Shown here: in pieces, positions 17,641 to 64,000 of the stretch
Layout of the letters: each line of letters opens with the position of its first letter
How positions within the stretch are numbered: the first letter of the stretch is position 1
Assembly: GCA_937936465.1 (NCBI GenBank)
Contig: CALDDH010000004.1
Location: 62,001-126,000, forward strand
DNA: 64,000 bases
Direction: 5' to 3'
DNA from: an uncultured Mycoplasmatales bacterium
Lineage (GTDB): Bacteria > Bacillota_I > Bacilli_A > UBA3375
Position numbers and translations under genes: made by a program
The notes under the pieces: model-generated
Told to the model about the DNA's origin: nothing
The model's database searches: none
Seen by the model: the letters and a program-made list of their open reading frames with translations, nothing else

Positions 17641-17673
17641 ATTTGAATTTATTTTAAACATTATGCTACGTTA

Positions 17674-35765: not shown

Positions 35766-37909
35766 TTATTCCTTTTTTCTAATTAAAAGAAATCCAGAAA
35801 GTGATAAAATAAATATCCCTAAGATACTTTTTAAATCAAGTGATATTGCTTCTTTTACAATAACATCTTGATTAATTTGCTCACCTGTTGTTGGATCTTC
35901 ATAAAAAAGTTGATATTGTCCATTTTGATTGAGATTAATATTATTATAAATTAGTGTTAATTCTTTAGTTATATTCTGACCATCTTGATTTTCAACTTTT
36001 AGTCTTTTTGGTTTACTTGCATCATTTTTCTGACCTTCTTTTAAAATAATATTTTTATTTTTAACTATTATTTCATTATTTTCATTTGATTTATCTGGCT
36101 CTACAGTAACTATAATTTCTTTGTAACTAATATTATCATCACTATCTATCACACTATATTTAACTTGATATATTCCTGGAGTATTTACATCTACATTGTT
36201 ATTTAAAACATTAATATCACTTGTAATGTCACCATCCTCTTGGTCACTCGAAATCAGATCATTATTTGCATTAAGTGGATTAAATTCATCTCCTAGTTCA
36301 ATAGAAATATTATTAGCTTCAATGGTTAGACTAACATCTGATAAAACTTTAACAGTTATTTCTTTATATCCAATGTTTCCATCGTAATCCTCTACACTGT
36401 ATATAACCTGATATAAACCTATTAATTGATTATTTACATTATTACTTACTATTTTTATTTCATCAATTAAATTACCTTCTTCTAAATCTAAAGCAGTTAA
36501 TCCTATATCCAGACTTAATGGGTCAAACTCCTCTCCCTCTTTTATACTGACATCATTGGCATTAATAGTTGGAGCTTGATTTGTTCTAACAATTACTGTT
36601 ATATTTTTTGTTACTGTATTTCCATCACTATCTATTACTTGATATACTACTTGATAATTACCTGGTGTATTTGCATCTACATTATCACTTATTACAGTTA
36701 TATCTTGAGTCAAGTCTCCATCCTCGAGATCTGTTGCCACTAAGTTATTTCCAGCATTCATTGTATCAAACGAGTCTCCCTCTTTAATAATGACATTATT
36801 AGCCTCAAGTGTTGGCGCATTATCAGTTCTGACTATTACTTCAATCTCTTTAAACGTTATATTCCCATCACTATCTTTTGCGCTATATGTTACTTGATAT
36901 ACTCCTGGTCTATTTTGATCCACATTAGTACTTGCGACTACAATTTCAGTTGTTATATCTCCATCTTCAGGGTTTATTGCCACTAAGTTATTATTGCTAT
37001 TCAGCGGATCAAAAGAATCACCTAATTTTATTGATATATTATTTGCAGTAATAGTTGGATTATTATCAGTTACAACAGTTATCATTATTTGTTTTGTTGT
37101 AATATTTTCATCCTATCTGTTACTTGATATATAACTTTATAAGATCCAGGGACTTGATTATTTACATTATTCTCCATAATTTTAATTTCACTTGTTAAAT
37201 TACCATCTTCAGGGTCTATTGCTACTAATCCATTATTTTGATTTAAAGGATCAAATTTTTCACCAACCTTTATTTGCATATCATTTGCATTAATAACTGG
37301 ATAGTTATTTGATTCAATATCTAAAATATTAAGTTTAAATTCTAATTCACATCTTTTTTCATCACTATTTAAATTAAAATTCAGTATATCTTGATTTAAA
37401 AAAGTCAATTTTGGTTTATTTTCTTGATTTAAATAATTTTTTCTTTTAATAGAACTAACTTTATTATTATTTAATAACATATTATCATCTGGTAAATTAC
37501 TTTTATAAATTGTTTGATTAAAAGTTAAATTTATTTTTTTAGATGTTTTCAATATAATTAATTCAAAATCTACAAATATTTGTTCATTTGTATTTTGATC
37601 GAAAAATGTTAATTTAATTGGATTAATTCCTTCTTCAAATTTAATATTAACATTAAGTTTATTATTACTATTTTTAATTTTCATTTTATTTTTATTACTT
37701 TGATCAAATTTAATATCCAAATAAAATTGATAATCAGTTTGAATATCTTTAAATTTAATAATACTATTATATTCATCAGTTTCAATTGATGTTATCTGAT
37801 AATTAGATTGATCATTATTTTCACTTGAATCAGCATGTAAGTGTAAATATAAATTAGATATAAAGAATGTTAATATTATTAAAAAAACAACAACTTTATT
37901 TATTTTCAT
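35766..37909 (-). pseudogene. Ig-like (DUF5011-type) repeat surface protein, split by a one-base deletion
   Basis: Two frames, 37909-37085 (274 aa) and 37085-35766 (439 aa), are one gene of about 714 aa interrupted at 37112/37113. The first ends YQVTD then shifts. Adding one base after the AG of the next codon gives DSDENITTKQI, exactly the repeat consensus, and continues into the second frame. The N-terminus is a signal peptide (VVVFLIILTFFISNLYLHLHADS). A 180-aa beta-rich region follows, then five tandem repeats of about 81 aa (consensus PEDGDLT--I-V--NNVD---PG-YQV-Y-V-DSDGN) and one degenerate copy. The C-terminus is a TM helix followed by RKKE. It probably displayed an extracellular stalk. 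It may be a pseudogene, a phase-variable gene or a sequencing error. Confidence 0.8.
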
Positions 37910-37911
37910 AA

Positions 37912-38178: not shown

Positions 38179-38198
38179 CTATTTATAAAGTTAAATGA

Positions 38199-38641
38199 TT
38201 ATAACATAGCATTATAATTATCAATATCTCTTCTTAAATCTTGGTTTAATTGTTTTATTTGATTACTCATTTCAAATAAATCACTTCCAATTATAGAATA
38301 TTTTTCATTATCTTCTTTTTCAATTTTATGATTAAAAGAATTAATTATTTTTAAAACTTCAAAATAATAATTATTAATTATTCTTTTTTGATTATTTCTT
38401 AAAGGTATTCCGGCTTTTTTTCTAATAAATCAGCTTCAGCTATTTCTTGATTTTTATAACTCATAACTTTGTCCATACTTGTTATGAATGAAAACACAAT
38501 TAATAAAACCCAAAATGGAATTGAATAGCCCCTTGTTGTTAAATAATTCATATTATCTATTTTTAATAATATTAAAATAATCAAAATTAATGATAATGGT
38601 AAATAAAGAAATCTTAATTTATATAATATATTTTTCATCAT
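38199..38641 (-). CDS. Small two-helix membrane protein joined by a -1 frame (A AAA AAG site)
   Basis: The ATG at 38641 (GGGGAG 5 bases upstream, its own -10) opens an 80-aa frame with two TM helices (residues 9-25 and 43-58) that ends at 38399 after LLEKKPEYL. At 38414-38420 the frame contains A AAA AAG, the canonical bacterial -1 slippery heptamer, correctly phased. Slipping there gives LLEKKAGIPLRNNQ and then 60 more residues of plausible coding sequence (IINSFNHKIEKED, DLFEMSNQIKQLNQDLRRDI) ending at TAA 38199. The joined product would be about 147 aa: two TM helices plus a cytosolic coiled coil, faintly like XpaC-type proteins. It may be programmed frameshifting or a mutation. Confidence 0.5.
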
Positions 38642-38680
38642 AGTTACTCCCCTTGTTATCTTATATTATATTATAACATT
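38642..38680 (-). promoter_or_regulatory. Promoter of the small membrane protein / Ig / glycosyltransferase unit
   Basis: Minus-strand TATAAT (38670-38675) is followed by AAGATAACAAGGGGAG and the ATG at 38641. It lies directly after the terminator of the ATPase/giant-protein operon, so a new transcript starts here and probably continues to the glycosyltransferase at 34061. No clear -35 is visible because the T-tract of the terminator occupies that position. Confidence 0.55.
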
Positions 38681-38687
38681 TTAATAT

Positions 38688-38730
38688 GAAAAAAAATAAA
38701 GAGAAACGAAAAGAATTTTTTTCGCCCCTC
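38688..38730 (-). terminator. Strong intrinsic terminator ending the ATPase/giant-protein operon
   Basis: On the minus strand GAGGGGCGAAAA (38730-38719) pairs with TTTTCGTTTCTC (38712-38701) over 12 positions, including three G-U pairs, across a 6-base loop, and runs into TTTATTTTTTTT. It begins 8 bases after the stop of the 3965-aa gene and defines the 3' end of the operon. Confidence 0.88.
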
Positions 38731-38738
38731 TTATCAAA

Positions 38739-41700
38739 TTAATGTTTATATTTGATATAATAAATTATTAAAACAGGTGTAATTAGTATAATAATCCAAA
38801 TAATTATATGATTATTATTCTCAATTTCATGTGGAATAGTTACTGATGTTGATTTATTTATATTAGTTTTACTATTTTTATTTTCATAATTTTCTTGTTC
38901 ATCTTCATTAACTTCTAAATTAATTTGATTAATTTCACTTTCTACTTCTTCTTGATTAAACTGACCATTTTCTTGTTCTTGATAAATATAATTAACTTGA
39001 TTTGCATATTCATCATATGTATTTGCATCTAAATTATTTAATTCAATTAATTGTTCATAATCATTACTACTTGGAATTAAATTAATTAAAAATTTATTAT
39101 TATAATTATATATATCTTCATAATCTAGATTTTGATTTTGATCACTATTTGATATTGATATGTTTGTTTGAATATTATTAAATGATATTTTAACTTTACT
39201 TTGAATTATATTTAAGTTATATTTAAAACTATTATTTTTGCTTCCCAATACATTCTGTGTATAAATTATTTCTTCTTTTTGATTATTTATAGTTGTAATA
39301 ACATATGTGAAATCATTTGATCTATCTTCAATTTCAGTATAGTATTCTGATTTTACACCAGAGATATTTTCAGCTATTAAAAATTGATCATTTAATTCAA
39401 TGTTATCAAGACCTTCATTTAAGTATATATTATAGACTTTATCTTTATCACCAGTAAATGTTAATGATAATCCATCTTCTAAATATAATAATTCTACTTT
39501 AATTTGCTGATCATCTTGTGTACCTTTAGAACTTTTATTATTTCGCATACTTGATGGTCTTGGTGTATTATATAATGTTGGTTGATTATTTATTGATACA
39601 TTATCAACATTCCATGGTTCATCAGAGTTGTACCCCACATCAAATCCTAATTTATCACTATACCAACTAGCCTCTCCAAGGTTATAACTTGAAATTTGGT
39701 ATCCCTTTTTATTAGTATAGACTGGACTGTTATTCTCATAATAATAATAATAGTTATCAAAATAAATATTTCCAAAGCTTAATGAAGAAAATTCAGTTTC
39801 ATCTTGATACTTAACACTAGTTCCACCATAATATGAATTAACAACATTTGCACCATCATTTGCATAACCAATCATTCCACCTATTTTTAATTTATCTGAA
39901 TCAAAATCTCGTGTATCAAAACTTACATTACTATAAGATTCATGAATATAAGTTTGTGATGATGCGACACCAACCATTGATCCAACATAAGATGTTTCAT
40001 ATGTTTGACCACTTAGATTAATATTTCCACTAGCAGATGAATTACTTATCTCTAAACTTCCTCTACTCTCACCTACAAACATCCCAATACTTGGTGAATA
40101 ATAATCTTGATCATAATCAATATTACCAATAATTGCTAAATCTAATATTTGAGCATCTTTAGTTGATGAGAACAAACCATTATCTGATGTTAAATTACTA
40201 ATTGTATATCCATTACCATCAAATCTACCAGAATAATTATAAGCACCTGTGTAATCAATTCCTGAACAGTTGATACTCTTTGTCAATATATAATTATTTG
40301 ATGAATTATTCTCAATTGCATCTAATTGACTACAACTTTCTATTTCTATAATGTCTGAATACTCAACTTCATAATCTATCGGTTGACTACTTATTGATTC
40401 ACCATCTTCTAAATTATAAGTTATATAATATTGATAAGAATATTCATATGGCTTTTGTAATTCATAATTATAATATTTTTCATTTCCATTTAATGTATCA
40501 ATAATATGATCATTACCATTTGTAATTTCATGTACATCAATTGTATCAATTACTAGTTGTTCCGGATTATATAAATTATCATCAAACATTAACTCAATTG
40601 ACCCCTCGTCTCCATTTACTTCAATATCTTTAATTATTCTAAGTTCATTATTCAACGTTGGATAATTAATTAAATTTACATTTTTAACATTAAAGATTTC
40701 ATCAGTATCCCACTTTAAATTATCTGCATAGAATTGACTATCACTTATTTGTTCACTAGTTACTTTAATTACATCATCTTCTTGAATGTCTTCTTCATAT
40801 TCACCATAATAATAATTATTTGTCTGTTCTCCACCATTTGCAATTAAATGTGTACTTGAACCATAATTTTTCATAAAACCAGTATATAAATTATTTTCAA
40901 ATATTGTCTCAGTTGCACTATATACTAGACCAGAAGAATCTGTCCTACCACCTGTTTGATTAATTAAATCTACACTAGAATAAATATTTTCAACTTCACC
41001 ATTTTCAGTATATCCAGCCAGTGAGCCTATTTTAAATGGGTCCTCCCTATAAGCATAATCACTAATACTTCCAGTTAATATTAAGTTCTCAACAACTGTA
41101 TTTTTCATTGATTTGGCCACTAATCCCATAGGACTATCATTACTACTATTATATTCTAAATCAGAATTCAAATGAAAATTATGAATATATGCATTTTCTG
41201 TATTTTCAAATAAAGTATCAGTCAGTCCATATACCTTATAACCATTTCCATCTAATTCACCTTTAAAATCATATGAAGGAGTAAAATCATTATTTGAACA
41301 ATTTATATTATCAGTTAATATATATGAAATTGATGTGTCATTTGGAATTGCATCTAGTTCTTGACAACTATTAATTTCAATTTTTTCTGGACTTTCTAAA
41401 ATAACATCATATACTGGTAATGAACCTACATACTGATCATCATTTGTATATTCAATATAAAATTCATAATGTTCCCAACTTGATAATTGATCTATTGAAT
41501 AAATTAACTCAGTATCTTTTGGACTTACACTGTCAAGTAATTTTTTTTTATTGTCCAAATAATTACCATAATAAATATTAATATTATCAAATTCTGCATC
41601 AGTTATTTCTTCTCCCCAAGATATTATAATATTTTCTTGAGAATCATCATATTCAACTTCTACAGCATCATCCGTTCTAATTTGATTATACAAAGTTGGA

Positions 41701-44700
41701 TCATTATCAATACTCACACTTTCAACATTAAAAATATTTTCCTGATTATAAGAACCTGTTGACCAATTAAGTGTATCACTATACCAATTAGGATTACTTA
41801 AACTAGAATCTGATACCATTTCAACTCCATCATCTTCATTAGTGTCTAAATAAGAGTTAGAAGTCTTATAATTATTTTTACCATTATCACTGGATATAGA
41901 TTCCATTAACTCAAAACCATATATATTTCCATCAAATAAACTATTTTCTACATTTGCCTCTTTATTAATACCATAAGCATAACTATCATGATTATTATTT
42001 ATATCACCAATTAAATCAACTGAAGAATAAACATTTGAAATATTTAAATCCTCTGATCCTTTACCTACCACTCCTCCATAATTATTGTTACTATTATGCG
42101 AATAAATTTCACCATCAACTATTATGTTTTCAACACTAACATTACCCGATGTTTTATTTGCTATTACACCAATTGCTTGTTTAGTAGAATCATTTATTTC
42201 TTCTGAAACAGATAAATTTTTAACAACAGACCCATCACTTAATGATTCAAACAAACCACCATCTGTAGAATATAAATTTGATATTTGATATCCATCTCCA
42301 TTAAATTCTCCACTAAAATGGCTTGCACCACTATAATCTTGAATACTAGAACAATCAATACTATTTATCAAAATATAATTATAAGTACTATCATCTTCAA
42401 TATCATCTAATTCTTGACAAGTTGATATGGGAATATATGTAGTTTCTTCTATTTTAAATGATAATTGATTTGATGATATTGAACTTCCATCAGCAAATAC
42501 ATATTCAACATTAATTTCTGAAACTTGTGTTTTTGGTCTATACATATATTCTGTTATATTTTTATCAATTTCAATAGTTTCTGAATTACCTTTTGAATCA
42601 TAACTATTTATATTTATATGATCGATATCAACATTATATTCTGGTTTATTCCATCTTAATTCAAAGGTTTGATTATCTGAATTATAATCATCTTCAACTA
42701 ATTCAATGTTAGTTGGAATCATATTAAATAAAACTGGCGGATTTACTTCACTTAGACTTGAGGTGTTCCATGTGTTTATTGTGTCCCATTTTAAATCATC
42801 ACTATAAAATTTAATATCTGATAATTTATTATTACTAATTTCATTTACTTGATTTTCTTGATTTATTACTTGTCCATTAATAATTTCTGCTGAATCACTA
42901 TAATATGAATTACTAATATTAGTGTTTTCTTCACTACTTATTATATAACCAACATCAATGGTTGAACCCGCAGGCAATGATATTTTACTACCACTATATA
43001 AAACATTATTAATCTCAGGTTGAGATGATTGATCAACAGAATTAACAACACCGGATACTTTCCCACCTGAATTAATTTGATTATTAATATAAATATTTAC
43101 TTTTGAGTAACAATCATTGATAGTAAGACCATCACTTTTAGAATTTCCTATCATTCCTCCAATACCAGAAGAAGTATTACTAGCAGAAGATATTGATCCT
43201 TCTACTCCAACATTTTCTATTATTATATCAGGTCCATTTGTTATGTTTGCAAGCATCCCAATATCACCATGACTAACACTAGAATCTTTTGTATTAATAT
43301 TCCCTTTAATAATTAGATCATGGACATATGCTCCAGTGCTTAATGATGCGAAAACTCCATCAGATTCTGTATGAAAATTATATATTTGATAACCATTTCC
43401 ATTAAATTCTCCTGAATATGACCCTGGTGAATTATAATCATTAACATCTGCGCAATCAATATCATTCATTAATGTGTAATTTACTTCACTAAAATTTGGA
43501 ATCAAATTTAATTCTTGGCATGTATATATATATTGAGTATTAGTATTTAAGGTAATATTTACATTTTTTGAATAGTATGTATTATACTCGCCATTTACTT
43601 TTAAGTAATAAATGTGCTCTCCACTTGGATATTGATCATCATATTTATATGTATAAGTAGTTTGATTTGAGTCTAATGTTTTTAAAGTCGTTTCTTCTAC
43701 ACTATATCTATCAATTATTTCTAATGATTGAATTTGATCATTTAAAATTTTTAAATCTTCAAATTCAAATTCAAGCTGTTGCTTTTCCTCATCATTTACA
43801 ACACTAAATTCATAAATACTTAAACTGTTGTATAAATTTGGTTGATGACCGAGAGAAGCTTCCTCAACATACCACGGACTTTGTTCTCCAGTTGCACCTG
43901 TATTCCATTTTAAAACGTTACTGTACCATAATGGCTCAGCTAGTTCATTAGCATCTGCTTCCGTATAATTATCATGACTAGTACTTGCTTCTGATATATA
44001 AGTAACATAATTATTTGTTGAATCACCATTTGTAATAAAATAAGTTGATGAAGTTGCAGCTCCACTTAGAGAACCAGAATAAATACTATTTTCCACATTT
44101 GTATAATAACCAAATCCTGCAATAGTACAAACTGTTGAAGTATTAACATCAATATTAACAGATGAGTAACTTTCATGTATATTTGTTTCACCACTACTTG
44201 AACCTTTTCCAATTACTCCTCCAATGAAAATTTGATTTTTAGCATCAACTAAAATATCCCCATCAACTAAAATATCATATATTTCCACATTTCCTGATGT
44301 GCTATTTGCTATCATTCCAACTGAAGATTTAGAGTAATCAATGTATATATTCCCAATTACTTGAACATTCTTAATTACAGCTCCATCTATTAAACTATTG
44401 AATAGACCTGAATAATCTGATTGAATATTAGAAACAGTATAACCATTCCCATTAAATTCTCCACTATAATTACTTGCACCAGTGTAGTTACCATTTGAAT
44501 TACAATCAATATTTTGTGTTAATTGATAATTCACATCACTATCATCAGGTATTTGATCTAAATCTTGGCATGTACTTATATCTTGATAATCAACTTCAAC
44601 TACATCTGAAGTTGAATCAGCAAACATTTGCCACTCCTCATCAGGCATATAATATACTTCCGTTTCAAATATATCAATATTATCAATATCAGTTTGAACA

Positions 44701-47700
44701 ACTAATTTATTTTCTCCATTTGCAATGTCAAATTGAAAATCTTCAGAACCACTATAAGTATCTTCTGAACTTACAAAATCAACATTCCATATATATGATC
44801 CATCATTCATTTGTTTTAAATCAACTAACTCAAATAAAATGTTATCAGTTACATTCTTAATTGATAATGTATTATCTGTGAATCCCATACTACTTGAATT
44901 CCCACTAGGTTTGCTACATGAATTATCCATATTAATATTTGTTGAAGTTCCTCCTTCTGTATAATTCAAACTACTACATTGTCCATTATATTGTGTTGAA
45001 TTATTCTCATAAGCAAATTGATCATTGTATTTTCCCTCTTCATCATATACATAATTACCTGGATTTTTAGTTTCAGTTCCCACAACATTATTTAATCCAA
45101 CTAATTGACCAAATGAATAATATTTATCATTAAGTGGTGATTTATAAATAAACGTACCAAAATTATCATTTAATTTATAACTATTACCTTCTTCTAATTT
45201 AGAATTTATTACTACTTCATAAAATTCTTGATTATCACTTCCATAGTAATCCATTACTTTTGAATTATCATATACAGCATTAATCGTATATTCAAAATTA
45301 GGATTATTTTGAATTGAATACTCATAAGTTTCGATTGTTGAATCAATATTTGATTCTACTAATTGATAATCTTTTTGATCAATATTTAATTCAATATTTA
45401 ATTGTTCATGTCCAGGATTATAAATTTCAATTGTTGAATTGACAGCATTACTACTTTCAATATTTGTTATATTTGTAATTTGAGGTGAAATATATTTATT
45501 ATACTCTGTCTTAATTGTTCCTTCAATTGGCTCATTATTTATAACCTTTACATACTCATTACCTTCATAATCATCATAAGATGCTTGAACATCAATTGAA
45601 AATTGATCTCCAGGATTATAATCTAAAACAATGAAACCATCATCTTGTACAATATAATTATTGGATATCTCTTTGCCTGTTTGACTATCAATTAATTTAT
45701 ATGTAGCATCAGTATTTTTATATTCATAAGATTCACTTATCAAAATTGAATCAGTAGCAATATCTTTTAGATTAAATTCTGGATTTATTGGATTATAATT
45801 AATAAACCTACGCTGATCTTGACTATCTGAGACCAAGTAATAATCATTTTCATTATCATACATTACTCCATTGATCCCAGTTGTAATTTCTGTCTTATCA
45901 TTTACAGGCACTACTTTACTATTATTTTGATATTTATTTTTGATTTGCTGATCACCACTTTGCTCACATTGATAATTAGTCCCATCTTCATAAGTTACAT
46001 AAATATTAGAATATTTTGTATCATCAATATTATATCCTGTTGCACTATCAATGTTTTTTACTTTTTTATCTTCAGGTTTACAAGCTTGACTACTTTCTTG
46101 TGCATCAGTTTTAATAACATAGATATTTCCTAAAACATCTTGGATATAAGTTGCTGATAAGGTATATTCAATATCTACTATTTTTAAACTTCCATTTAAA
46201 ATAGTTATAGGAATTGGATTGATTGTATGTGATCCTTCAGGTGAATCTGATCCAACCATTCCAAAGGTTCCATCATCTCTTATAAAATATATAATATCTT
46301 GATTACCAGTTGCATAAATCATATTTTCATCTTCTAATTCATTAACATCCCAATTTATTGATTCACTATCTGCTATAACCAATTGATTTTTTCCATTATT
46401 CATATATAAATTAATTATCGGTAAATTACTGCCATTAATCACTCCAATAATTTGGAAATCTATTATACCACCTTGATAGATACTAAATAATTGTTCGTAT
46501 TGATCTACTTGTTCTTTTTCTCCCCAAACATCAATACTTTTATCATCTTTTAATCCAAAATGAACTTTACCAATTGAATCTATTTTTATATAATTATCAT
46601 TTTCTGGCATAGCAATATAATCATTGTATTGCTCATTATCTTCAGATATTAATTTTCCACTTTGTTGTTGCGTAGTTACAGAATCACTTGTCATGTATGA
46701 TCCTTGGACATTATCTACAGTATTAATATAATTACTTTCATAAGTTTCAATACCATTTGTAACTTGCACTTGAACTATTATATTTTGATCAATATCTTCA
46801 ATTATATAATTTTCTTTATTTGGAGAAAAAGATTCGATTTCCTTGTATTCTGTATCTTCTTCTCTCATAGATATTTTAATATCACTACTATTATCAAGCA
46901 TACCATATGAAACAACTAAATTAGAATCAATTCCTTGATGTACACTAATACCTTCTGAATATTCAATTAAAAATGACGGGAAATTATCAGTATATTCATA
47001 CTCATATATTTCATCAAGATTATATCTATTTTGATATGTAATATTTGTAATTTTATATTTATTTTTTCCAACTTCACCATTTAAATCTAAATTATACATT
47101 TGGACTTCATCATATAAATGTTCATTTAAGGCTTCATATGTTTCTTTTTTACCATCTTCATCTTCAATTGTAATATCTTTTACAATTAATCCATCTAAAT
47201 TATTTTCTAAATTAAATTTAAACGTTCCAACTTCACCAGGAATAATTAAATCTGGATTTTGATAGATCATTTCTTGATTAATAATATTAGGAATATGATT
47301 GATTTGATTTATATTTAGAAAATTATTTTTATCACTTCCATAAGCAGTATATGTTCCGTCTTGATAATAAACGATGGCATTATTTGTTGTTTGAACATCT
47401 ACTTTAATTACTTGCTTTAAATTACCTAATATATAATCTGGAACGTCTTGAATTATTAAAGTGGCTTCCGGATTGCTAATTATTTCTAATGTTTGATCAG
47501 TTAGTGCTATAAGTATTGGTTTATTATCAATGTTTACATATTGTAATTGTTTATATTCATCATTTACTTCATAATCAGGATTCCCATCTAACTTATCATA
47601 ATAAGAAATATCATCTTCATCTGTAAGTGTAAAAGCACTTTGACCTAATGAAAAATCTAACACATTTATTTTTTGATTAGTATAATTTCTTGGAATTAAA

Positions 47701-50636
47701 TCAATTGTCTGATCTTGTTTCTCATCAGTTGATCCACCAACATATAATTCCCCTTCTTCAGTTATTAGACTTACTGAATAATCATTTATATATAATTTAC
47801 TTACTTGTTCTTTGTTTAAGTAAGGTGCTAAACTAATTCTTTGATGATCATCTGTTCCAATAAGTTGATATGTTCCATCATCTAACACAACACCAACAAG
47901 ATAGCTATCCGCTTGTTGAGTTGGACTTAAATAAATATCAATGATATGTCCTTGATATTGTTCTAACTCAGAATTAATTAAATCAGCATTTATACCCCAT
48001 GCAACTGCTTCTTTACTTTTATTATTCAAAGCCATAGCAGTATTTTGTTCAGCTATTATTTTATTATATTCACCTTTTGGAACATCTAATAATACTGAAT
48101 CATCTTCGCCATACGCCATTAATTCATTATTATCTTGAATATATATTGAAGTATCTTCTGTTATTGCAGATGTTGAAATTTTACTTGTAAAAAGAATTTC
48201 ATCACTAGAAAGGTTAATCATATTAACTTCTGTATTTTCTGAAGAAATACTACATTCAATATTCCAAATACTATCAGTTTGATAGTTCATATCAAATTCT
48301 ATTTGATTATATCCTTCACTTAGTACTTCAGAATATTCTTCTGTATGATTCCCATCATTAATTACTATGTTTAAAGTGTAATCTTCTCTTGTTTGTGCAA
48401 ATTGCCAGTCAACAACAATTTTATCATTAGTATTAACATATATCTCTGGTTCAATCAAATGGGTTGAAATCATTTTCTCATTATAAGTATAAACTTCTGT
48501 TTGATCTAGTGGATTTATATATTCAATTTCTGTAAGTATGTAAGTTTCTTCACTATATTCTGTAGAATTTGAAAAGGGGATACTACTAACTTTATATAAT
48601 TCTTGATCTACTTCAACCACATTTTTATATTTTTTATCATTTAATGTTACAGATTCAATTTGATATTGATCTGGATTATCTATTTCTAAAAATAGATTTG
48701 TATCATCTTGATCTACAATAACTTCTGACATATATGAGTCATTTAATTCAGGAGTTTTAAAGGGAATTTTGATACTATCATTTTCAATGAAATTATATTC
48801 TGATATTTCTCCATTACCAAGATCACTAAAGATAGTTATTGAAAATATATAATCAATACCTGCTTGTATATTTTCAAAAATAAATTTATACTCACCATTT
48901 GCCTTGTTATTATTAGTAATAGTCGCAACTGATTGATCAGTTTCTTTATCTAATAAATTTATTTCAATATTTTTAATTGATTGTTCAGGATCATCAACTG
49001 TTAAATTATAAATTATATTTCTATCTTCATCAATTGTAAAATTAGTTTTAATTGAATTTTGATCATATTTTTCTTTTAAAATATATCCACTTATTTGATT
49101 ATAAACACTTTGATTAGAATTATACTTTTTATTATTATAAGTAAAATCATATGAATCAATAAGTCTATCAATTTTACCTGGAATTTCACTATCAACTTCA
49201 ACATCATTCACTACAATTTGATTATCTGAAATTTTTTCAATATTTGTATATGTAACTCCCTCAATTACAACCTTATTTATTTTCATATTTTTTATTGAAT
49301 CTGAAAATGTGATTATTAGATCTGATGATTTAGCATCTGATTTAACATAACCAAAATCAGATGTTAAAATATAAGGCACATTTTCCACTGTATAATCTAA
49401 ACTATAATCTAAATCAATTATATCAGAGCTATCTTTTGAGACTATTAGACTTGTAAGACCAAGTCTATATTGACCTGCTTTTTTTGGAGATAGATTAAAA
49501 TAGAATGACCCATTCTTATCGGTAGAATTAATCATAAAAGTTCCTTCAGATGTGTTTAAACTTATAATTTCAAATTCATCTGGATTTTCAATATCAATTC
49601 TAACTTGAATTGGTTCATATGGAGTTATATCTTTTGTTACTATTTCAGCATTTGTTATACTAGGGTTTGTGTAATTTTCAATTGGCTCAGTTACTTCAGG
49701 ATTTTCAGGTTTATCTTCTCCTCCTCCATTATTATCAGCATTAATCTCTCCTTCAATATTGTTATTGTTATTATTGTTTTCACTAATGTCATTATTTTCA
49801 CTATTATCAATCGTTTGTTCGATAACTTCGGGTTCTGATATAATACTTACTGGCTTAACAGTTAATTGATCAATGATTTGTCCATCTTCATTAATAATTG
49901 TATTGTTTTCATCAATGAATGCCTCTTCAAAATTCAAATCTTCACTTTTTACGCATTCAATATATTGGCTATCATTTATAGTGTCTTCATCAATTGATAA
50001 GTCCCCATAATCAATTGAATAGAAACCAGAATACTCATATTCAGAAGCCGTTAATTGTCCATTCAACATTGTATAAATATTTATTATATCCTCATCTACT
50101 TTATAAAAACTCATTGATGGAATAATAATATCTTCTTGACCAACATTTAAAATTGATTCATAAAATAAAAAGTATTCAAATTCATTATAATAAATAAATG
50201 TATCACCATATTTTTCTTTAGTTTTATTAATATCTAATTCAATACTTTCTAAAGATAAACTATTTTTATTTGAAACACTCATTTCACCATTATTATCCTT
50301 TACAATACTAGATGGTTTTAGTTTTATAGAGTAAGGTGTTTCATCAAAAATTAATAGTTCTGAGTCCGTTGTTGTTTGAACTGTTTTTTCATCTTTAGAA
50401 AATAATGGTATATTACTTAAATTATATATAAGACCATTTTGATTATCAATTTTAGCAGAATCATCATTTGTTGAAAAAGATAGTTTACTATCAACATCAA
50501 CTATATTATTGTTACTTAATACAGTTTGTGAATCAGCATAAACTTTATGGAAAATATTATTGTTAATAAATAAATATATAAATCCAATTACTATTATTGA
50601 AACAATTAAACCTAATACACTTTTTTTATTTAACAT
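38739..50636 (-). CDS. Giant secreted modular protein (3965 aa) with RCC1-like, FN3-like and GLUG beta-helix modules
   Basis: The true ATG is at 50636, 5 bases after GGGAGA. It overlaps the end of the 5-helix membrane gene by 11 bases, so the protein is translationally coupled to the ATPase operon. Residues 5-30 form a signal helix with a probable cleavage at VYA-DS. Next come a 200-aa unique domain, an Asn/Glu/Pro-rich linker (about 275-325) and FN3-like domains. Two stretches with RCC1-like blades follow (about 815-1135 and 1315-1610, e.g. AVAWGIN, LYVGGSTDE, IDVWGEKEQ). Residues about 2020-3690 are five copies of a 350-aa module. The C-terminus is a TM helix and short basic tail (YYIKYKH), anchoring the protein outward. 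The size, about 430 kDa, recalls gliding or adhesion giants of Mollicutes. Function is inferred only. Confidence 0.85.
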   Translation of the reverse strand: MLNKKSVLGLIVSIIVIGFIYLFINNNIFHKVYADSQTVLSNNNIVDVDSKLSFSTNDDSAKIDNQNGLIYNLSNIPLFSKDEKTVQTTTDSELLIFDETPYSIKLKPSSIVKDNNGEMSVSNKNSLSLESIELDINKTKEKYGDTFIYYNEFEYFLFYESILNVGQEDIIIPSMSFYKVDEDIINIYTMLNGQLTASEYEYSGFYSIDYGDLSIDEDTINDSQYIECVKSEDLNFEEAFIDENNTIINEDGQIIDQLTVKPVSIISEPEVIEQTIDNSENNDISENNNNNNNIEGEINADNNGGGEDKPENPEVTEPIENYTNPSITNAEIVTKDITPYEPIQVRIDIENPDEFEIISLNTSEGTFMINSTDKNGSFYFNLSPKKAGQYRLGLTSLIVSKDSSDIIDLDYSLDYTVENVPYILTSDFGYVKSDAKSSDLIITFSDSIKNMKINKVVIEGVTYTNIEKISDNQIVVNDVEVDSEIPGKIDRLIDSYDFTYNNKKYNSNQSVYNQISGYILKEKYDQNSIKTNFTIDEDRNIIYNLTVDDPEQSIKNIEINLLDKETDQSVATITNNNKANGEYKFIFENIQAGIDYIFSITIFSDLGNGEISEYNFIENDSIKIPFKTPELNDSYMSEVIVDQDDTNLFLEIDNPDQYQIESVTLNDKKYKNVVEVDQELYKVSSIPFSNSTEYSEETYILTEIEYINPLDQTEVYTYNEKMISTHLIEPEIYVNTNDKIVVDWQFAQTREDYTLNIVINDGNHTEEYSEVLSEGYNQIEFDMNYQTDSIWNIECSISSENTEVNMINLSSDEILFTSKISTSAITEDTSIYIQDNNELMAYGEDDSVLLDVPKGEYNKIIAEQNTAMALNNKSKEAVAWGINADLINSELEQYQGHIIDIYLSPTQQADSYLVGVVLDDGTYQLIGTDDHQRISLAPYLNKEQVSKLYINDYSVSLITEEGELYVGGSTDEKQDQTIDLIPRNYTNQKINVLDFSLGQSAFTLTDEDDISYYDKLDGNPDYEVNDEYKQLQYVNIDNKPILIALTDQTLEIISNPEATLIIQDVPDYILGNLKQVIKVDVQTTNNAIVYYQDGTYTAYGSDKNNFLNINQINHIPNIINQEMIYQNPDLIIPGEVGTFKFNLENNLDGLIVKDITIEDEDGKKETYEALNEHLYDEVQMYNLDLNGEVGKNKYKITNITYQNRYNLDEIYEYEYTDNFPSFLIEYSEGISVHQGIDSNLVVSYGMLDNSSDIKISMREEDTEYKEIESFSPNKENYIIEDIDQNIIVQVQVTNGIETYESNYINTVDNVQGSYMTSDSVTTQQQSGKLISEDNEQYNDYIAMPENDNYIKIDSIGKVHFGLKDDKSIDVWGEKEQVDQYEQLFSIYQGGIIDFQIIGVINGSNLPIINLYMNNGKNQLVIADSESINWDVNELEDENMIYATGNQDIIYFIRDDGTFGMVGSDSPEGSHTINPIPITILNGSLKIVDIEYTLSATYIQDVLGNIYVIKTDAQESSQACKPEDKKVKNIDSATGYNIDDTKYSNIYVTYEDGTNYQCEQSGDQQIKNKYQNNSKVVPVNDKTEITTGINGVMYDNENDYYLVSDSQDQRRFINYNPINPEFNLKDIATDSILISESYEYKNTDATYKLIDSQTGKEISNNYIVQDDGFIVLDYNPGDQFSIDVQASYDDYEGNEYVKVINNEPIEGTIKTEYNKYISPQITNITNIESSNAVNSTIEIYNPGHEQLNIELNIDQKDYQLVESNIDSTIETYEYSIQNNPNFEYTINAVYDNSKVMDYYGSDNQEFYEVVINSKLEEGNSYKLNDNFGTFIYKSPLNDKYYSFGQLVGLNNVVGTETKNPGNYVYDEEGKYNDQFAYENNSTQYNGQCSSLNYTEGGTSTNINMDNSCSKPSGNSSSMGFTDNTLSIKNVTDNILFELVDLKQMNDGSYIWNVDFVSSEDTYSGSEDFQFDIANGENKLVVQTDIDNIDIFETEVYYMPDEEWQMFADSTSDVVEVDYQDISTCQDLDQIPDDSDVNYQLTQNIDCNSNGNYTGASNYSGEFNGNGYTVSNIQSDYSGLFNSLIDGAVIKNVQVIGNIYIDYSKSSVGMIANSTSGNVEIYDILVDGDILVDAKNQIFIGGVIGKGSSSGETNIHESYSSVNIDVNTSTVCTIAGFGYYTNVENSIYSGSLSGAATSSTYFITNGDSTNNYVTYISEASTSHDNYTEADANELAEPLWYSNVLKWNTGATGEQSPWYVEEASLGHQPNLYNSLSIYEFSVVNDEEKQQLEFEFEDLKILNDQIQSLEIIDRYSVEETTLKTLDSNQTTYTYKYDDQYPSGEHIYYLKVNGEYNTYYSKNVNITLNTNTQYIYTCQELNLIPNFSEVNYTLMNDIDCADVNDYNSPGSYSGEFNGNGYQIYNFHTESDGVFASLSTGAYVHDLIIKGNINTKDSSVSHGDIGMLANITNGPDIIIENVGVEGSISSASNTSSGIGGMIGNSKSDGLTINDCYSKVNIYINNQINSGGKVSGVVNSVDQSSQPEINNVLYSGSKISLPAGSTIDVGYIISSEENTNISNSYYSDSAEIINGQVINQENQVNEISNNKLSDIKFYSDDLKWDTINTWNTSSLSEVNPPVLFNMIPTNIELVEDDYNSDNQTFELRWNKPEYNVDIDHININSYDSKGNSETIEIDKNITEYMYRPKTQVSEINVEYVFADGSSISSNQLSFKIEETTYIPISTCQELDDIEDDSTYNYILINSIDCSSIQDYSGASHFSGEFNGDGYQISNLYSTDGGLFESLSDGSVVKNLSVSEEINDSTKQAIGVIANKTSGNVSVENIIVDGEIYSHNSNNNYGGVVGKGSEDLNISNVYSSVDLIGDINNNHDSYAYGINKEANVENSLFDGNIYGFELMESISSDNGKNNYKTSNSYLDTNEDDGVEMVSDSSLSNPNWYSDTLNWSTGSYNQENIFNVESVSIDNDPTLYNQIRTDDAVEVEYDDSQENIIISWGEEITDAEFDNINIYYGNYLDNKKKLLDSVSPKDTELIYSIDQLSSWEHYEFYIEYTNDDQYVGSLPVYDVILESPEKIEINSCQELDAIPNDTSISYILTDNINCSNNDFTPSYDFKGELDGNGYKVYGLTDTLFENTENAYIHNFHLNSDLEYNSSNDSPMGLVAKSMKNTVVENLILTGSISDYAYREDPFKIGSLAGYTENGEVENIYSSVDLINQTGGRTDSSGLVYSATETIFENNLYTGFMKNYGSSTHLIANGGEQTNNYYYGEYEEDIQEDDVIKVTSEQISDSQFYADNLKWDTDEIFNVKNVNLINYPTLNNELRIIKDIEVNGDEGSIELMFDDNLYNPEQLVIDTIDVHEITNGNDHIIDTLNGNEKYYNYELQKPYEYSYQYYITYNLEDGESISSQPIDYEVEYSDIIEIESCSQLDAIENNSSNNYILTKSINCSGIDYTGAYNYSGRFDGNGYTISNLTSDNGLFSSTKDAQILDLAIIGNIDYDQDYYSPSIGMFVGESRGSLEISNSSASGNINLSGQTYETSYVGSMVGVASSQTYIHESYSNVSFDTRDFDSDKLKIGGMIGYANDGANVVNSYYGGTSVKYQDETEFSSLSFGNIYFDNYYYYYENNSPVYTNKKGYQISSYNLGEASWYSDKLGFDVGYNSDEPWNVDNVSINNQPTLYNTPRPSSMRNNKSSKGTQDDQQIKVELLYLEDGLSLTFTGDKDKVYNIYLNEGLDNIELNDQFLIAENISGVKSEYYTEIEDRSNDFTYVITTINNQKEEIIYTQNVLGSKNNSFKYNLNIIQSKVKISFNNIQTNISISNSDQNQNLDYEDIYNYNNKFLINLIPSSNDYEQLIELNNLDANTYDEYANQVNYIYQEQENGQFNQEEVESEINQINLEVNEDEQENYENKNSKTNINKSTSVTIPHEIENNNHIIIWIIILITPVLIIYYIKYKH
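39560..44585 (-). repeat. Five tandem ~1.05-kb coding modules (GLUG beta-helix plus FN3-like domain)
   Basis: Inside the giant gene, module starts lie near 44580, 43530, 42430, 41375 and 40345, a period of about 1025-1100 bases. Each begins with a variant of TCQELD-I----NY-L---IDC, then FNGNGY-I-N, GLF-SL--GA-VKNL, (I/V)GG-IGKG-type GLUG strands, an LxWYSD-LKW-T motif, P-LYN, and an FN3-like domain of about 80-90 residues. All five copies keep a Cys pair about 25 residues apart, which suggests a disulfide. DNA identity between copies looks low, so they are old duplications. Confidence 0.85.
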
Positions 50637-51096
50637 TTTTTCTCCCATTTAATATTATAATTTTATTTTTAAGCTGAAGTATAAGATATATATTTAAACT
50701 AAATAGTATAATTAATTGAAATAATAATAATGTTATTGAATATCCAAAAATAACATTATTATAAATTTGATAATAATACATTTTATTACTAATAAATAAG
50801 ATTAACATATTGATTCCTAAAAATAATAAATTATGTATATTATTTTTTGAAACAATAAAAAATATTATAGTTTGAATAACTATGATACATAAATATAAAA
50901 GAAAATAATTAAAAATTGTTGAATTAATAATTATCATAAGTAAATATACGTATACAAGAAAATTAACTAAAAGAATTGATAAATATATTTTATCTTTTTT
51001 AGTTCCTAATTTAATAATAATTTTTATTGATTTTTTAAGTGCTCTTTGATTTAATATTAAAATTAGAACACTGCTTATTAAGATTGTAATAATCAT
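50626..51096 (-). CDS. Five-helix membrane protein of the ATPase operon, unknown family
   Basis: A 156-aa very hydrophobic protein with about five TM helices and the basic loop KKSIKIIIKLGTKKDK between the first two. It sits between epsilon (1-base gap) and the giant gene (11-base overlap). It does not match subunit a: there is no Arg in a late helix with the usual polar partners, and it is too short. It does not match AtpI either, which would normally lie at the other end of the operon. A role as a membrane adaptor linking the ATPase to the giant protein is a guess from position. Confidence 0.6.
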   Translation of the reverse strand: MIITILISSVLILILNQRALKKSIKIIIKLGTKKDKIYLSILLVNFLVYVYLLMIIINSTIFNYFLLYLCIIVIQTIIFFIVSKNNIHNLLFLGINMLILFISNKMYYYQIYNNVIFGYSITLLLFQLIILFSLNIYLILQLKNKIIILNGRKNVK

Positions 51097-51097: not shown

Positions 51098-53595
<2,498 letters not shown>

Positions 53596-53599
<4 letters not shown>

Positions 53600-55029
53600 T
53601 TAGAAATCCCGATTATTTTATTTAAATTTAAACTTAATTCTTTATTGCTAGTATCTTTATTTTCAATTATTTGAATAAACTCTTGAGTAATATTGTTTTT
53701 GATCTTTTCCTTAAAGATTGAAATATCTATTGAATTTAATTGATTACTTTTAAAGGCATGTAAACATATTAATTGCTCTACCTCAGACATTGGTGTCAAT
53801 TCATCTTGCTTAAATAATTCATATAACATTTTTCCATTTTCATAATCATTTTTCACTTGACCAATTAAATCCATACCAACAATTGAATTTTTCTCAATCA
53901 CTACGTATTTAATATATTGTGATAAAATATTTTTACTTTTTTCTTTCATTATTGTACTTTGTGCAGATGATCCAATTCTAGATACACTATATCCTAAATC
54001 AACACTTGGTTTAAATCCTTTTTGAAATAAATCACTAGATGTGAAAATTTGACCATCTGTAATACTAATTATATTTGTGGCAATAAAAGAAGAAATATCA
54101 CCACCTTGTGTTTCAATAATTGGTAAAGCAGTTATTGATCCTTTTTCAATACATGTTGCTCTTTCTAAAAGCCTTGAATGTAAGTAAAAAATATCACCTG
54201 GGTATGCTTCTCTTCCTGGTGGATTATTCATAAGTAATGACATACTACGATATATTTCAGAATGTTTAGTTAAATCATCGTATGTAATTACAACATCATA
54301 TCCTTTTAACATAAATTCTTCGGCAACACTTGTTGCTGAAAAAGGAATTAAGTATTTTGACATCATATTATCATTTGAAGAAGCAACGAATATTATTGTA
54401 TTATCCATAGCATTATTATTTATTAGTTGATCTTGAAGAATTTTTATTTTTGATAACTTTTGTTCAATTGCAACATATATATTTATTACATTATTATCAT
54501 TTTGATTAATCATTGTATCAACTGCAATTTGAGTTTTTCCAGTTTCACGATCACCAATTATAAGTTCTCTTTGGCCACGTCCAATTGGAATACAACAATC
54601 AATTGATAAAATACCTGTTTTAAGAGATCTATCAACTTTTTGACGATCAATCAATGGTATTAAATTCCTTTCAATCGGAACTTCTTTAAATTCAGTAATA
54701 TCTTCACTAACATCAATTGGGTTACCATTATAATCAACAACTTTTCCTAATAATTGAGATGAATATTTTACTGATATAATTTGATCAGTCATTTCAACAA
54801 AGCTACCTGATTTAATTTTACCCTTTGAAAGAATCCCAACTGTTGTTGTTTTTTCATCGTACTGTAAAATCAAACCTTTTTCTTGTTCACCAATTTTAAC
54901 AATTCCATTTAATTTAGGATTGTCTAATCCCATAATAGTTGCAATACCATCTTTAAATGAAGTTATATATGCAGGTTGTGTATTAAGGTGTTTTTTAATA
55001 CTTTTTTTAATCTCTACTTTATTATCCAA
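53596..55029 (-). CDS. F1-type ATPase alpha subunit
   Basis: A 477-aa alpha subunit, about 25 residues shorter than usual. The nucleotide loop is IIGDRETGKTQIAVDTMINQ, with Glu for the usual Gln. AIEQKLSKI stands for the usual AIGQKRS. NPPGREAYPGDIFYLHSRLLERA and ISITDGQIF are conserved. The Arg finger is kept in YSVSRIGSSAQ, so catalysis by alpha3beta3 should work. The changes at the non-catalytic site set it apart from housekeeping alpha subunits. It overlaps the b-delta gene by 8 bases. Confidence 0.94.
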
Positions 55030-55979: not shown

Positions 55980-56234
55980 CTATACCAAGTAAGGATTTGC
56001 GAAAAGCAAAATCCCTGCAAATAATAATATTATTATTAATACAACAAATGCCATAAATCCAATTATTAATGATGTTTGTAAAATTTCATTTTTCACATCT
56101 GGATTCCTACCAATTGCTGTTGCTGCTTTTGATCCTATCATCCCTAAAGATATTGCAACTCCTAGTGATCCTATTCCTACTATTAAACCTACTGCTTGCA
56201 AACTAGCACTTACTACTACTTCAATGTTTTCCAT
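55980..56234 (-). CDS. ATPase c-like subunit lacking the ion-binding carboxylate
   Basis: An 84-aa hairpin of two TM helices joined by the loop AIGRNPDV, the hallmark of subunit c (R-Q/N-P). A frame 7 codons longer exists, but AAAGG precedes the ATG at 56234 and overlaps the end of the 800-aa gene. Helix 1 (VGLIVGIGSLGVAISLGMIG) keeps the glycine pattern for tight ring packing. Helix 2 reads SLIIGFMAFVVLIIILLFAG: at the place of the essential Glu/Asp there is Val (or Phe in an ungapped alignment), and neither helix contains any acidic residue. The ring can probably assemble but cannot carry H+ or Na+. Confidence 0.85.
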   Translation of the reverse strand: MENIEVVVSASLQAVGLIVGIGSLGVAISLGMIGSKAATAIGRNPDVKNEILQTSLIIGFMAFVVLIIILLFAGILLFANPYLV

Positions 56235-56235
56235 A

Positions 56236-58638
56236 TTATAACCTTTCAATTCCATTTTTATTTAGTTTATATATTTCTTTTTCAATACCAACATATAGTT
56301 CTTCTTCTTCTTTAGATATATCATTTATTTCAACTTCATCTAACTCTTGGTACACATTATCTACATCATTATATATATGCATAACTTTTTTTTCATCAAT
56401 TGCAAAAATAACATCACCAATATTATATATTTCAATAAATTCATTTAAGATACTTATTTTATATTCATCAATTACTTGATCTGATTCTAAGTCATATTTT
56501 TCAATTGATGAACCCTTATTAATGTAATAATAATTGTCTGTATATAAATAATCATCAGAAATAATTGATGAATACTTAATTTCTTGAGTAACTAATTCAT
56601 CACCTTTTGAATCTACATATTTTAATTTATAATAATAATCACCAAACTGATTGCTTGTAAATTCAATTTTATTATCCATACCAACAATATATTCTTTTTT
56701 TACAATTTGATTATAATCTTGATTATTCACACTCATTAGTACACTAATGCTACAATTATTTAAAAGAATTGGCAACCCACTGAATTTTATTTGATATTTA
56801 TTATTTTTATTTGTGATGCTTTCAATTTTGAAATCAATTGAATAATTAGTATAAGGAGTAGTATATTGATCAACTATTTGCTCATCACTAATTAAGTTGA
56901 CTACAGCATAATATTCACCCTCTGAAACTAATCCATTTTCTAATCCAAAATCTTCATGTTGATCAATTGATTGTCTTTTTGTGACTAATTTATCATTTTT
57001 ATTGTATATATTATATTCAAGATAATCATATTCACCTTCAATACCTAAATCAATTATAACTTTATTATTATCACTATCAATTTCAACACTATTAAATGAA
57101 CTAGATTCTTCAAGTGTTGTAAAAAAGTATTCTCCATCAACATCTAACTCATTATTATTATAAACAGCATCAGTAATACTTACTTTATAATCTGTACCAG
57201 CTTTTAAATCAATAAACTCTACTGTTTGAAATGAACTAGTTGCTAATTTTGTGTTTAATGGAATTTTAATAAATTCTTCATATTCACCGCTATTATTTTC
57301 TTCTAACATAACATTTGCTGAATCTAATTCGATGTCATCTAGAATTGATACATTTACAATAGCACTATTAATTTTCATTAGTTCAACAACAATATTACTT
57401 TGAACACTTTCTGTTGAAAATTCTTTACTATCAATTGTTTCTTGTTCAATACCGGAACCAAGATCATATGAAACTTTTAAATTAGCAGTATATTTATTAT
57501 TTGGCTGTAAACCAACAATCTTAACAACACTCTCTTCAATTGTTTGAGTAAAAATAACTTGACCAGTTTCATCAACAATTTCAATTATTGGAGTTGTTAC
57601 TAATGAACCTGATAAATCTGAATAACTAGCATTTATTTCAGCACTAATTGCCGTTACATTATTAATACTTGATATTAAACCTGTAGGAACATGTTTTTTA
57701 AATAAATCTTCATACATATCCTCTGTAATAATTATATCTTCAGAACCACTACTTGAACTATTGGAGTTATCTTGATTAACTTGATTATCAGTTGTTGTAG
57801 TATTTTTTGTATCAGTTTTTTCAGTAGTTACATTATCATTATCAACCTGATTACTATCAGGTGTACTTTGAATTTTTTCATCACTAGTATTTGATGTATC
57901 ATTTTTTTCATCTTTTATTTCTTCTAATGTTTCCTGATCATCTGTTGATTTATTTAAATCTTCATACTGAGAGCTACTCCCACCCAATTCAGTTAGATCA
58001 GTAATACTTCCATCTGAATAAATCAATTGTTCATTTCCAGTTTTAAATATAACACCATTATTTAATTCGATATCTTTAGCTTCTGAATATTTATATACAT
58101 CATCTTTTGTATATAAAGTTGGATTACCAGCCTTATCAATAAAGACATCTATTATGCCTTCAATGTGCAAATCACCAACTGAAACATCACCTAATATAAT
58201 GTATTGGCGATCACCTGTCTTAATAACAGTTCCATTTGGTACAGTTGCTTGATCAATTGTATATGTATCTGCTTTACCATTTATTAAAGAGCCTTTATAT
58301 ATATTGAAAAATGAATTATCCTCTGTAACAACAACACCATCAGATAAAAGGGTTGCACTATTATCGTTTACAACTGGTGCTACTTTTGAATTTGATAACT
58401 TGATTTTTTGATCTTCATAATCAATACTTTGTTGCCCATTGTAACTTTCATTTATTACTGTCTGTTGACTTGTAATATACTTTTGATTATATTGATCGTA
58501 AAAGACCGTATCAGCATCAACAGTAATTGCTTCTTCTTTACCTTTAATTGCAAATAAATCCATCCCAATACAAAGTAATAAAACTATAATAATTGGAATT
58601 AAAATTATTATTAAATTCTTTATACTTATTTTTCTCAT
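56236..58638 (-). CDS. Membrane-anchored surface protein (800 aa) with FN3-like domains, coupled to the c-like subunit
   Basis: Residues 8-25 are a TM helix without a clear cleavage site, so the protein is probably an N-terminally anchored ectodomain. Residues 35-230 form a unique beta-rich domain (NSFFNIYKGSLINGKADTYT, IILGDVSVGDLHIEG). A linker of about 90 residues is rich in Asn, Asp, Ser and Thr (230-315). FN3-like domains follow (IVGLQPNNKYTANLKVSYDLG, IDLKAGTDYKVSIT). The last 110 residues look like beta-propeller strands (YYINKGSSIEKYDLESDQV). The stop is one base before the c-like ATG, and it stands where subunit a should be. Function unknown. Confidence 0.82.
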   Translation of the reverse strand: MRKISIKNLIIILIPIIIVLLLCIGMDLFAIKGKEEAITVDADTVFYDQYNQKYITSQQTVINESYNGQQSIDYEDQKIKLSNSKVAPVVNDNSATLLSDGVVVTEDNSFFNIYKGSLINGKADTYTIDQATVPNGTVIKTGDRQYIILGDVSVGDLHIEGIIDVFIDKAGNPTLYTKDDVYKYSEAKDIELNNGVIFKTGNEQLIYSDGSITDLTELGGSSSQYEDLNKSTDDQETLEEIKDEKNDTSNTSDEKIQSTPDSNQVDNDNVTTEKTDTKNTTTTDNQVNQDNSNSSSSGSEDIIITEDMYEDLFKKHVPTGLISSINNVTAISAEINASYSDLSGSLVTTPIIEIVDETGQVIFTQTIEESVVKIVGLQPNNKYTANLKVSYDLGSGIEQETIDSKEFSTESVQSNIVVELMKINSAIVNVSILDDIELDSANVMLEENNSGEYEEFIKIPLNTKLATSSFQTVEFIDLKAGTDYKVSITDAVYNNNELDVDGEYFFTTLEESSSFNSVEIDSDNNKVIIDLGIEGEYDYLEYNIYNKNDKLVTKRQSIDQHEDFGLENGLVSEGEYYAVVNLISDEQIVDQYTTPYTNYSIDFKIESITNKNNKYQIKFSGLPILLNNCSISVLMSVNNQDYNQIVKKEYIVGMDNKIEFTSNQFGDYYYKLKYVDSKGDELVTQEIKYSSIISDDYLYTDNYYYINKGSSIEKYDLESDQVIDEYKISILNEFIEIYNIGDVIFAIDEKKVMHIYNDVDNVYQELDEVEINDISKEEEELYVGIEKEIYKLNKNGIERL

Positions 58639-63896: not shown

Positions 63897-64000
63897 TTAA
63901 TTTGATACTGGCGTTGAAAATGTTTTTGTGTATATTGGATAATCTTTATAAATTCCATTATCATTATTCAAATTAAAAGTGGCGTTAACTATTAGTTCAT
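63897..64000 (-). CDS. C-terminal end of another surface protein (partial)
   Basis: The last 33 codons of a gene entering from beyond the right edge, ending TAA at 63897, 24 bases before the 1735-aa gene. The sequence contains YKDYPIYTKTFSTPVSN, the closing strand pattern of the FN3-like domains in the neighbours. The surface-protein part of the operon thus continues upstream outside the window. Confidence 0.65.
   Translation of the reverse strand, partial: ELIVNATFNLNNDNGIYKDYPIYTKTFSTPVSN

Follow-up and report, generated by a model that had tools for sequence, protein, structure and literature searches.

The operon described here is read as encoding one membrane machine, in which a rotary ATPase no longer moves ions and would instead drive surface proteins mechanically; we put the probability of this reading at about one in two. 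It is supported by intact catalytic motifs, a lost ion site, a surface protein in the slot of subunit a and a divergence specific to the ATPase. The formation of a single complex, the formation and turning of a c ring, the transfer of force to the surface proteins and the purpose of that transfer are the parts that we infer. The operon lies in a window (the whole stretch of DNA that was analysed, 64 kb of contig C4) from an assembly of 0.99 Mb that is 87% complete. The order to which the bacterium belongs is represented by only one other genome in the comparison set.

Read 5′ to 3′ on the minus strand, the operon begins with surface proteins of 713, 1735 and 800 aa, followed by a c-type subunit and a 315-aa protein. 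The F1 genes come next in the order alpha, gamma, beta and epsilon (N-terminal domain), and then a 156-aa membrane protein and, as the last gene, a giant surface protein (Table 1). From the 1735-aa gene through the giant, the intergenic gaps range from −23 to +26 nt, and both the c gene and the giant have overlapping starts. The FN3-like parts of the smaller surface proteins are related; the C-terminal part of the 713-aa protein matches those of the 1735-aa protein (E 4e-19) and the 800-aa protein (E 6e-10). The giant matches the 1735-aa protein only at E 0.01–0.02. An N-terminal domain common to all four surface proteins is not shown: two of the six pairs exceed shuffles (z 3.8 and 3.2) and four do not.

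Table 1. Features of the operon, with positions counted along the window.
Feature	Position	Strand	Basis or remark
713-aa surface protein, 3′ end in window	63897..64000	−	rest beyond window (L009 8038..5897)
1735-aa membrane-anchored FN3 surface protein	58665..63872	−	hydropathy, domain search
800-aa membrane-anchored surface protein, FN3-like region; in usual subunit-a position	56236..58638	−	
c-type subunit of 91 aa (84 aa if begun at the second ATG); RNP loop retained, F70 in place of the carboxylate	55980..56255	−	
315-aa protein in b/delta slot; N-terminal TM and long helix	55022..55969	−	weak FliH-like match
F1 alpha with P-loop and arginine finger preserved; retains a shortened helix-like stretch at the N terminus	53596..55029	−	
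F1 gamma, divergent	52706..53599	−	
F1 beta; catalytic motifs intact, above curated atpD cut-off	51343..52713	−	
Epsilon-like subunit, 82 aa, N-terminal beta-sandwich domain only	51098..51346	−	
156-aa membrane protein, 4–5 hydrophobic segments	50626..51096	−	overlaps giant start
Giant surface protein of 3969 aa (3965 aa if begun at the likelier start, 50636)	38739..50648	−	frame, hydropathy, module alignment, domain search, structure prediction
Five tandem modules of about 350 residues (GLUG-type beta-helix, then FN3-like)	39279..44582	−	residues 2023–3790; last boundary set by analyst
Terminator-like hairpin, 14-pair stem and T run	38699..38732	−	directly 3′ of giant

The intact motifs of alpha and beta suggest a catalytically competent F1 ATPase. 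Aligned with ten control sequences, beta keeps the P-loop, the GER motif with the catalytic glutamate, and Walker B; alpha, aligned with eight controls, keeps the P-loop and the arginine finger. Alpha, beta and gamma are all above their Pfam cut-offs. Against the NCBIfam models, beta scores 532 bits (atpD cut-off 463), alpha falls just below the atpA cut-off (459.5 against 484.45) and gamma well below its own (86 against 194). Within the 87% complete assembly, matches to the alpha and beta families are confined to this operon.

In the membrane sector, the ion-binding site of c has been lost and subunit a is missing from the 87% complete assembly, a feature that the earlier note does not mention. 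The c gene is readily recognised (PF00137, 31.1 bits against a cut-off of 24; best E 9.8e-13 against PDB chains of c subunits), and it is the only PF00137 match in the assembly. Its RNPD loop is retained. In the ion-site column, however, the window has phenylalanine where all 45 control c subunits (the loci in hand at the time, several of them near-copies) have glutamate. Leaving aside E12, which borders the first hydrophobic segment on its outer side, positions 13–52 and those after 57 contain no acidic residue. The slot before c, which holds subunit a in other genomes including the related G001, is here taken by the 800-aa FN3 protein.

The operon proteins scanned gave no Pfam match to subunit a. 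The sole PF00119 match in the assembly lies on contig C25 of G000 (L020, 1–14760; 14.8 kb), which was binned with the bacterium and carries what we take, by eye, to be animal mitochondrial genes (COX1–3, NAD subunits, cytochrome b and ATP6). Because this contig is present, the sample probably came from animal material. As the assembly is 87% complete, it could lack a subunit-a gene located elsewhere or a further c gene.

Five ATP synthase loci that were candidates for odd or second copies (L091–L095) have a canonical appearance, and each has a frame where subunit a is expected; that of L091 also matches PF00119. Their c subunits have glutamate: in L093–L095 it was located by alignment, in L091 and L092 it was recognised by eye near the frame's end. 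Judged by eye, the 591-aa alpha frames of L091 (11522–13297) and L092 (10682–12457) have an N-terminal extension, possibly a fused delta. The genomes of these two loci (G029 and G108) each have one more ATP synthase alpha, which lies on a different contig.

An ATPase that is still an ion pump or ATP synthase would have an undetected subunit a (the 156-aa protein or an unassembled gene) and an unusual ion site, and the surface genes would merely share its transcript. This is unlikely, and it keeps the weight it has because no other rotary ATPase is visible in the assembly and the cell may need one. The canonical gene order c–(b/delta)–alpha–gamma–beta–epsilon and the high atpD score of beta suit such a pump, but the replacement of the essential carboxylate and the surface protein in the subunit-a slot do not. 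The 156-aa protein is very hydrophobic, but it has no match in Pfam or NCBIfam, and its sole arginine near a hydrophobic segment, R18, borders the first of them. Were no other ion pump present, it would in turn have to be explained, on the motor reading, why the one rotary ATPase seen gave up ion transport.

Among the results that count against the reading as a mechanical motor, the 315-aa protein failed the sequence test as b/delta. Its position, its N-terminal TM segment and its long helix would suit a b–delta stalk. Own-built profiles of b and delta gave no significant match to it; it ranks 478th of 498 and 19th of 501, respectively, against its shuffles. The hhalign P values are 0.12 for delta (45 C-terminal columns) and 0.017 for b (17 hydrophobic columns). 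Predicted alone, the protein gives a poor model (mean pLDDT 43.8), and only about the first 90 residues, comprising the TM segment and the long helix, exceed 50. A search of 296 genomes at E 0.01 found matches in seven, namely itself and six others at E 0.002–0.008, none of them convincing. PDB sequence searches with the 315-aa and 156-aa proteins returned nothing useful.

The 315-aa protein also has a weak match to FliH (20.3 bits against a cut-off of 24.1). Together with the presence of exported giants in the same operon, this would suit an F1 part that powers the export or assembly of the surface proteins, in the manner of FliH/FliI, instead of moving them. Such a role seems decidedly improbable, since the scores of alpha and beta are much higher for F1 subunits than for FliI, and gamma, epsilon and c are all present. 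The surface proteins, moreover, bear ordinary signal or anchor helices, and no export-gate family was matched among the operon proteins scanned.

The gene for the giant is real. The uninterrupted frame of 11.9 kb described in the earlier note is present on the minus strand (50648..38739) and runs for 3969 codons from the first ATG. With the strand's base composition as the model, log10 P for this number of stop-free codons is about −180. The other five frames contain 250–818 stops, and G+C by codon position is 0.39/0.28/0.10. A chance origin of the open frame is excluded. A GGGAG motif, which resembles a ribosome-binding site, stands directly before the fifth codon; the start at 50636 (3965 aa, the length given originally) therefore appears likelier than the first ATG at 50648 (3969 aa). 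As had also been proposed, the start codon falls inside the preceding 156-aa gene, which ends at 50626; the overlap is 23 nt from the first ATG and 11 nt from the likelier start.

The anatomy of the region supports the giant as the probable last gene of the F-type ATPase operon. In the stretch 37000–39200, one terminator-like hairpin was found, directly after the giant, against 0.1 expected. A scan of 74 kb of the minus strand, made without a shuffle control, gave three such hairpins; the best-scoring is again the one directly after the giant, and the other two lie inside alpha and at 17643. The proposed coupling of the giant to the ATPase genes thus finds support in the gaps, the overlap and the hairpin. 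Promoter-like sites in the three stretches scanned are no commoner than in shuffles, and speak neither for nor against a separate promoter. A decaying ATP synthase of a host-dependent bacterium, placed by chance or for regulation beside adhesin genes of separate function, would fit the small assembly (0.99 Mb) and the fast evolution of the ATPase, but is a poor candidate in view of the intact frames, the preserved motifs of alpha and beta, the overlapping starts of the c gene and the giant, and the hairpin directly 3′ of the giant.

Behind the hairpin and ahead of an 80-aa frame with two TM segments is a promoter-like site (38692..38665, minus strand; TTTTCA, 16 nt, TATAAT). It may mark the beginning of another transcript; shuffles contain sites of this kind just as often. 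Further downstream (37909..35766, minus strand), abutting Ig-like surface frames of 274 and 439 aa overlap by 1 nt, and their repeat pattern crosses the junction. A single gene, broken by a frameshift or by an assembly error, is the probable explanation. Neither the Rfam nor the tRNA scan gave a match in the window.

The giant is strongly acidic (D+E 666, K+R 209); by hydropathy, it carries a signal helix at its N terminus and a TM helix at its C terminus. The domain layout in the earlier note holds for the signal helix, the five GLUG modules of about 350 residues and the C-terminal anchor. It fares less well for two supposed RCC1-like parts: one matches weakly (E 0.025; 14.3 bits against a cut-off of 150), and the domain search gave no match for the other. 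The N-terminal Ig/FN3-like matches are weak and below their cut-offs (SdrD_B, E 1.4e-4; fn3, E 0.011).

As cut, the five modules are 344–367 residues long and align with 31 invariant columns; modules 2–5 are 27–38% identical to the first. The structure of the first module was predicted from this five-row alignment (mean pLDDT 67.6, with the first 170 residues mostly above 80). According to this model, the modules are predicted to have the fold of the GLUG beta-helix domain. Six entries for the GLUG region of IgA1 proteases, among them 3n6z, 6xja and 7uvk, match it with Z 18.4–22.0 and rmsd 2.7–3.5 over 212–231 residues. Pectate-lyase-type helices are far lower, at Z 11.2 or less. The last 80 residues match FN3 domains with Z about 6. 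Foldseek also ranks IgA1 proteases at the top, yet with E of only 0.008 and 0.026.

Sequence profiles respond more faintly to the modules. Pfam GLUG matches two of the five, each below the cut-off, and the N-terminal region of M26 proteases matches one (24.3 against 27.7 bits). A profile of the five modules found no PDB chain at E 1, and in a whole-genome GLUG scan no match in the giant gene passed E 0.001. The giant also differs from the M26 IgA1 proteases, whose GLUG fold its modules appear to share, in the absence of the HExxH metalloprotease motif and in having five tandem copies that alternate with FN3-like domains. Unlike cell-wall-anchored LPXTG proteins, it has no C-terminal sorting motif; the pattern LPx[TAS][GAS] occurs neither in the giant nor in the three other surface proteins of the operon.

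Elsewhere in the genome, on contigs C1, C2, C14, C18, C20 and C24, the scan at E 0.001 found 25 GLUG-motif matches in frames of 388–1603 aa; none is on the ATPase contig. The start of the fifth module (residues 3435–3494, about 40167–40346 on the minus strand) matches phrog_30905 in two stretches (E 1.3e-11). This is a phage protein family of unknown function, and it is the sole kind of PHROGs match in the giant.

Comparable precedents for a mechanical role, by analogy, are the F1-like ATPases of mycoplasmas. In Mycoplasma mobile, according to the accessible text of PMC11864180, such an ATPase is put forward as the driver of the giant surface proteins that serve in gliding. In mycoplasmas with MIB–MIP, antibody cleavage needs an F1-like ATPase (accessible text of PMC12994834). 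The accessible portions of PMC3369863 and PMC12994834 describe the membrane parts of these systems as without homology to Fo or known proteins, and give the Type 2 and Type 3 systems as mycoplasma-specific. In the same portions, both types are defined by a seven-gene cluster with a 12-TM protein and a protein with two C-terminal TM segments; by hydropathy, the window's operon proteins include neither.

The Type 2 system of M. mobile (G1-ATPase) resembles the window in pairing an F1-like ATPase with a proposed load of giant surface proteins. It also has a stator-like protein, proposed to derive from fused b and delta, with which the 315-aa protein may be compared (PMC11864180 and PMC3369863, accessible text). 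Type 2, as described there, coexists with a genuine F1Fo, whereas no other F-type ATPase was found in the window's genome. Furthermore, the window keeps a c-type subunit, and TGA is a stop codon that closes its alpha and beta genes.

The Type 3 system (F1-like X0 ATPase with MIB–MIP) shares with the window an ATPase operon beside surface proteins, whose action, in Type 3, needs the ATPase (PMC12994834 and PMC3369863, accessible text). The window's membrane proteins are unlike X0 as characterised in those portions, and its alpha keeps an N-terminal helix-like stretch that is absent from the five Type 3 rows shown. No operon protein scanned matched MIB or MIP, the presence of such models in the libraries being unconfirmed. 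Against the NCBIfam models MSC_0619 and MMOB1660, alpha scores 317 and 386 bits, below the cut-offs of 520 and 600. With the F1Fo ATP synthase, finally, the window shares alpha, beta, gamma, epsilon and a c-type subunit in canonical order. It differs in having no subunit a, no carboxylate in c, unrecognisable b and delta, and surface proteins in the operon.

With ClpX as the one control gene, the divergence of the ATPase exceeds the pace of the genome as a whole, as a change of function would lead one to expect. Beta is 45–48% identical to six relatives, which are 66–79% identical among themselves; the corresponding ranges for alpha are 42–45% and 55–68%. For ClpX, which is encoded in the window, they are 46–56% and 50–66%. 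All these ranges leave out one close pair (G046 and G022, 94–97%).

In the best alpha tree, from which 9 of 60 rows had been removed beforehand as near-duplicates by name, the window groups with canonical F-type alphas, and its branch is very long (3.5). Full support separates it from 14 Type 3 rows and one row that we labelled Type 2-like. In the beta tree (3 of 28 rows removed by name, none by the motif filter), L075, which is Type 2-like by its alpha, falls among canonical rows; its beta match spans only 237 residues. An independent origin, the initial reading, was undercut by AU tests, which do not reject placement on the Type 2/3 side; this is 2.25 log units worse for alpha (p-AU 0.395) and 3.02 log units worse for beta (p-AU 0.281). 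The best tree thus suggests, short of proof, an origin independent of the mycoplasma Type 2/3 motors; a common origin with them is neither shown nor excluded.

Relatives of the alpha subunit are common. It has matches in 239 of 296 genomes, its own included, the best other match reaching 382 bits and 45% identity; those matched loci that were read are canonical ATP synthases. At E 1e-114, alpha has a single match among 392 genomes of the phylum, which is the window's own, and gamma likewise matches only its own genome among two of the order. An alpha search of genome contigs (154 pattern stretches; records of the own genome may be left out) and a search of viral contigs with the GLUG modules (38 stretches) found no relative.

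The homologues of the giant that the earlier note proposed to look for beside other F1-like clusters did not appear: residues 984–3969 are unmatched in four mycoplasma-like genomes with Type 3 clusters (G026, G038, G049 and G058). Among 60 relatives, the same residues match only themselves and, weakly, one place in G024 (E 1.8e-6), about 40 kb from the ATP synthase alpha of that genome. A second cluster of the window's kind was likewise not found in the genomes searched. The literature covered, which excludes preprints and most subscription papers, holds no report of such a system outside mycoplasmas. The system is known from one assembly, and that these searches found no homologue of it as a whole counts against the reading as a motor.

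As a mechanical motor, the ATPase would work as follows. ATP hydrolysis by alpha and beta would turn gamma and epsilon together with a ring of c-type subunits. In F-ATPases, gamma and epsilon sit on the polar loops of the c ring, and the putative ring here keeps the loop that would hold their foot. With no carboxylate and no subunit a to run against, it therefore could not exchange ions, and its use of ATP would be futile unless ring or stator did other work. The 315-aa protein would keep the F1 head still, and rotation or cyclic strain would cross the membrane to the surface proteins. The nearest candidates for the load are the four membrane-anchored surface proteins of the same apparent transcript; no sequence link between these and the c ring was found. 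The giant and the three smaller FN3-type proteins would be the working parts outside the cell, either moved over a surface (adhesion, gliding or stirring) or having their grip on a ligand reset.

Two proteins with transpeptidase domains are encoded in the genome, so the cell, unlike gliding mycoplasmas, is probably walled. This makes the gliding analogy weaker; surface chains of 700–4000 residues may cross a wall.

A wider proposal, tentative and somewhat against the odds, is that an ATP synthase became a mechanical motor outside the mycoplasmas. Subunit a would have been dropped and replaced by an FN3 protein, the ion-dead ring kept as a membrane rotor, and rotation passed to giant adhesin-like proteins. 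Such a motor could represent a third case of independent origin; alternatively, it could be a relative of the Type 2/3 ancestor that has survived with a remnant of Fo still visible. The retained c-type subunit is what sets the present cluster apart from the mycoplasma motors, as far as the accessible accounts of these go. In mycoplasmas, the route by which F1-like ATPases turned into motors that serve gliding and the removal of antibodies, and what stands in for Fo there, is an open question. A cluster of another lineage with an ion-dead c, no subunit a and an operon shared with surface giants would be anatomically intermediate, and would make it testable whether a c ring transmits torque to extracellular proteins.
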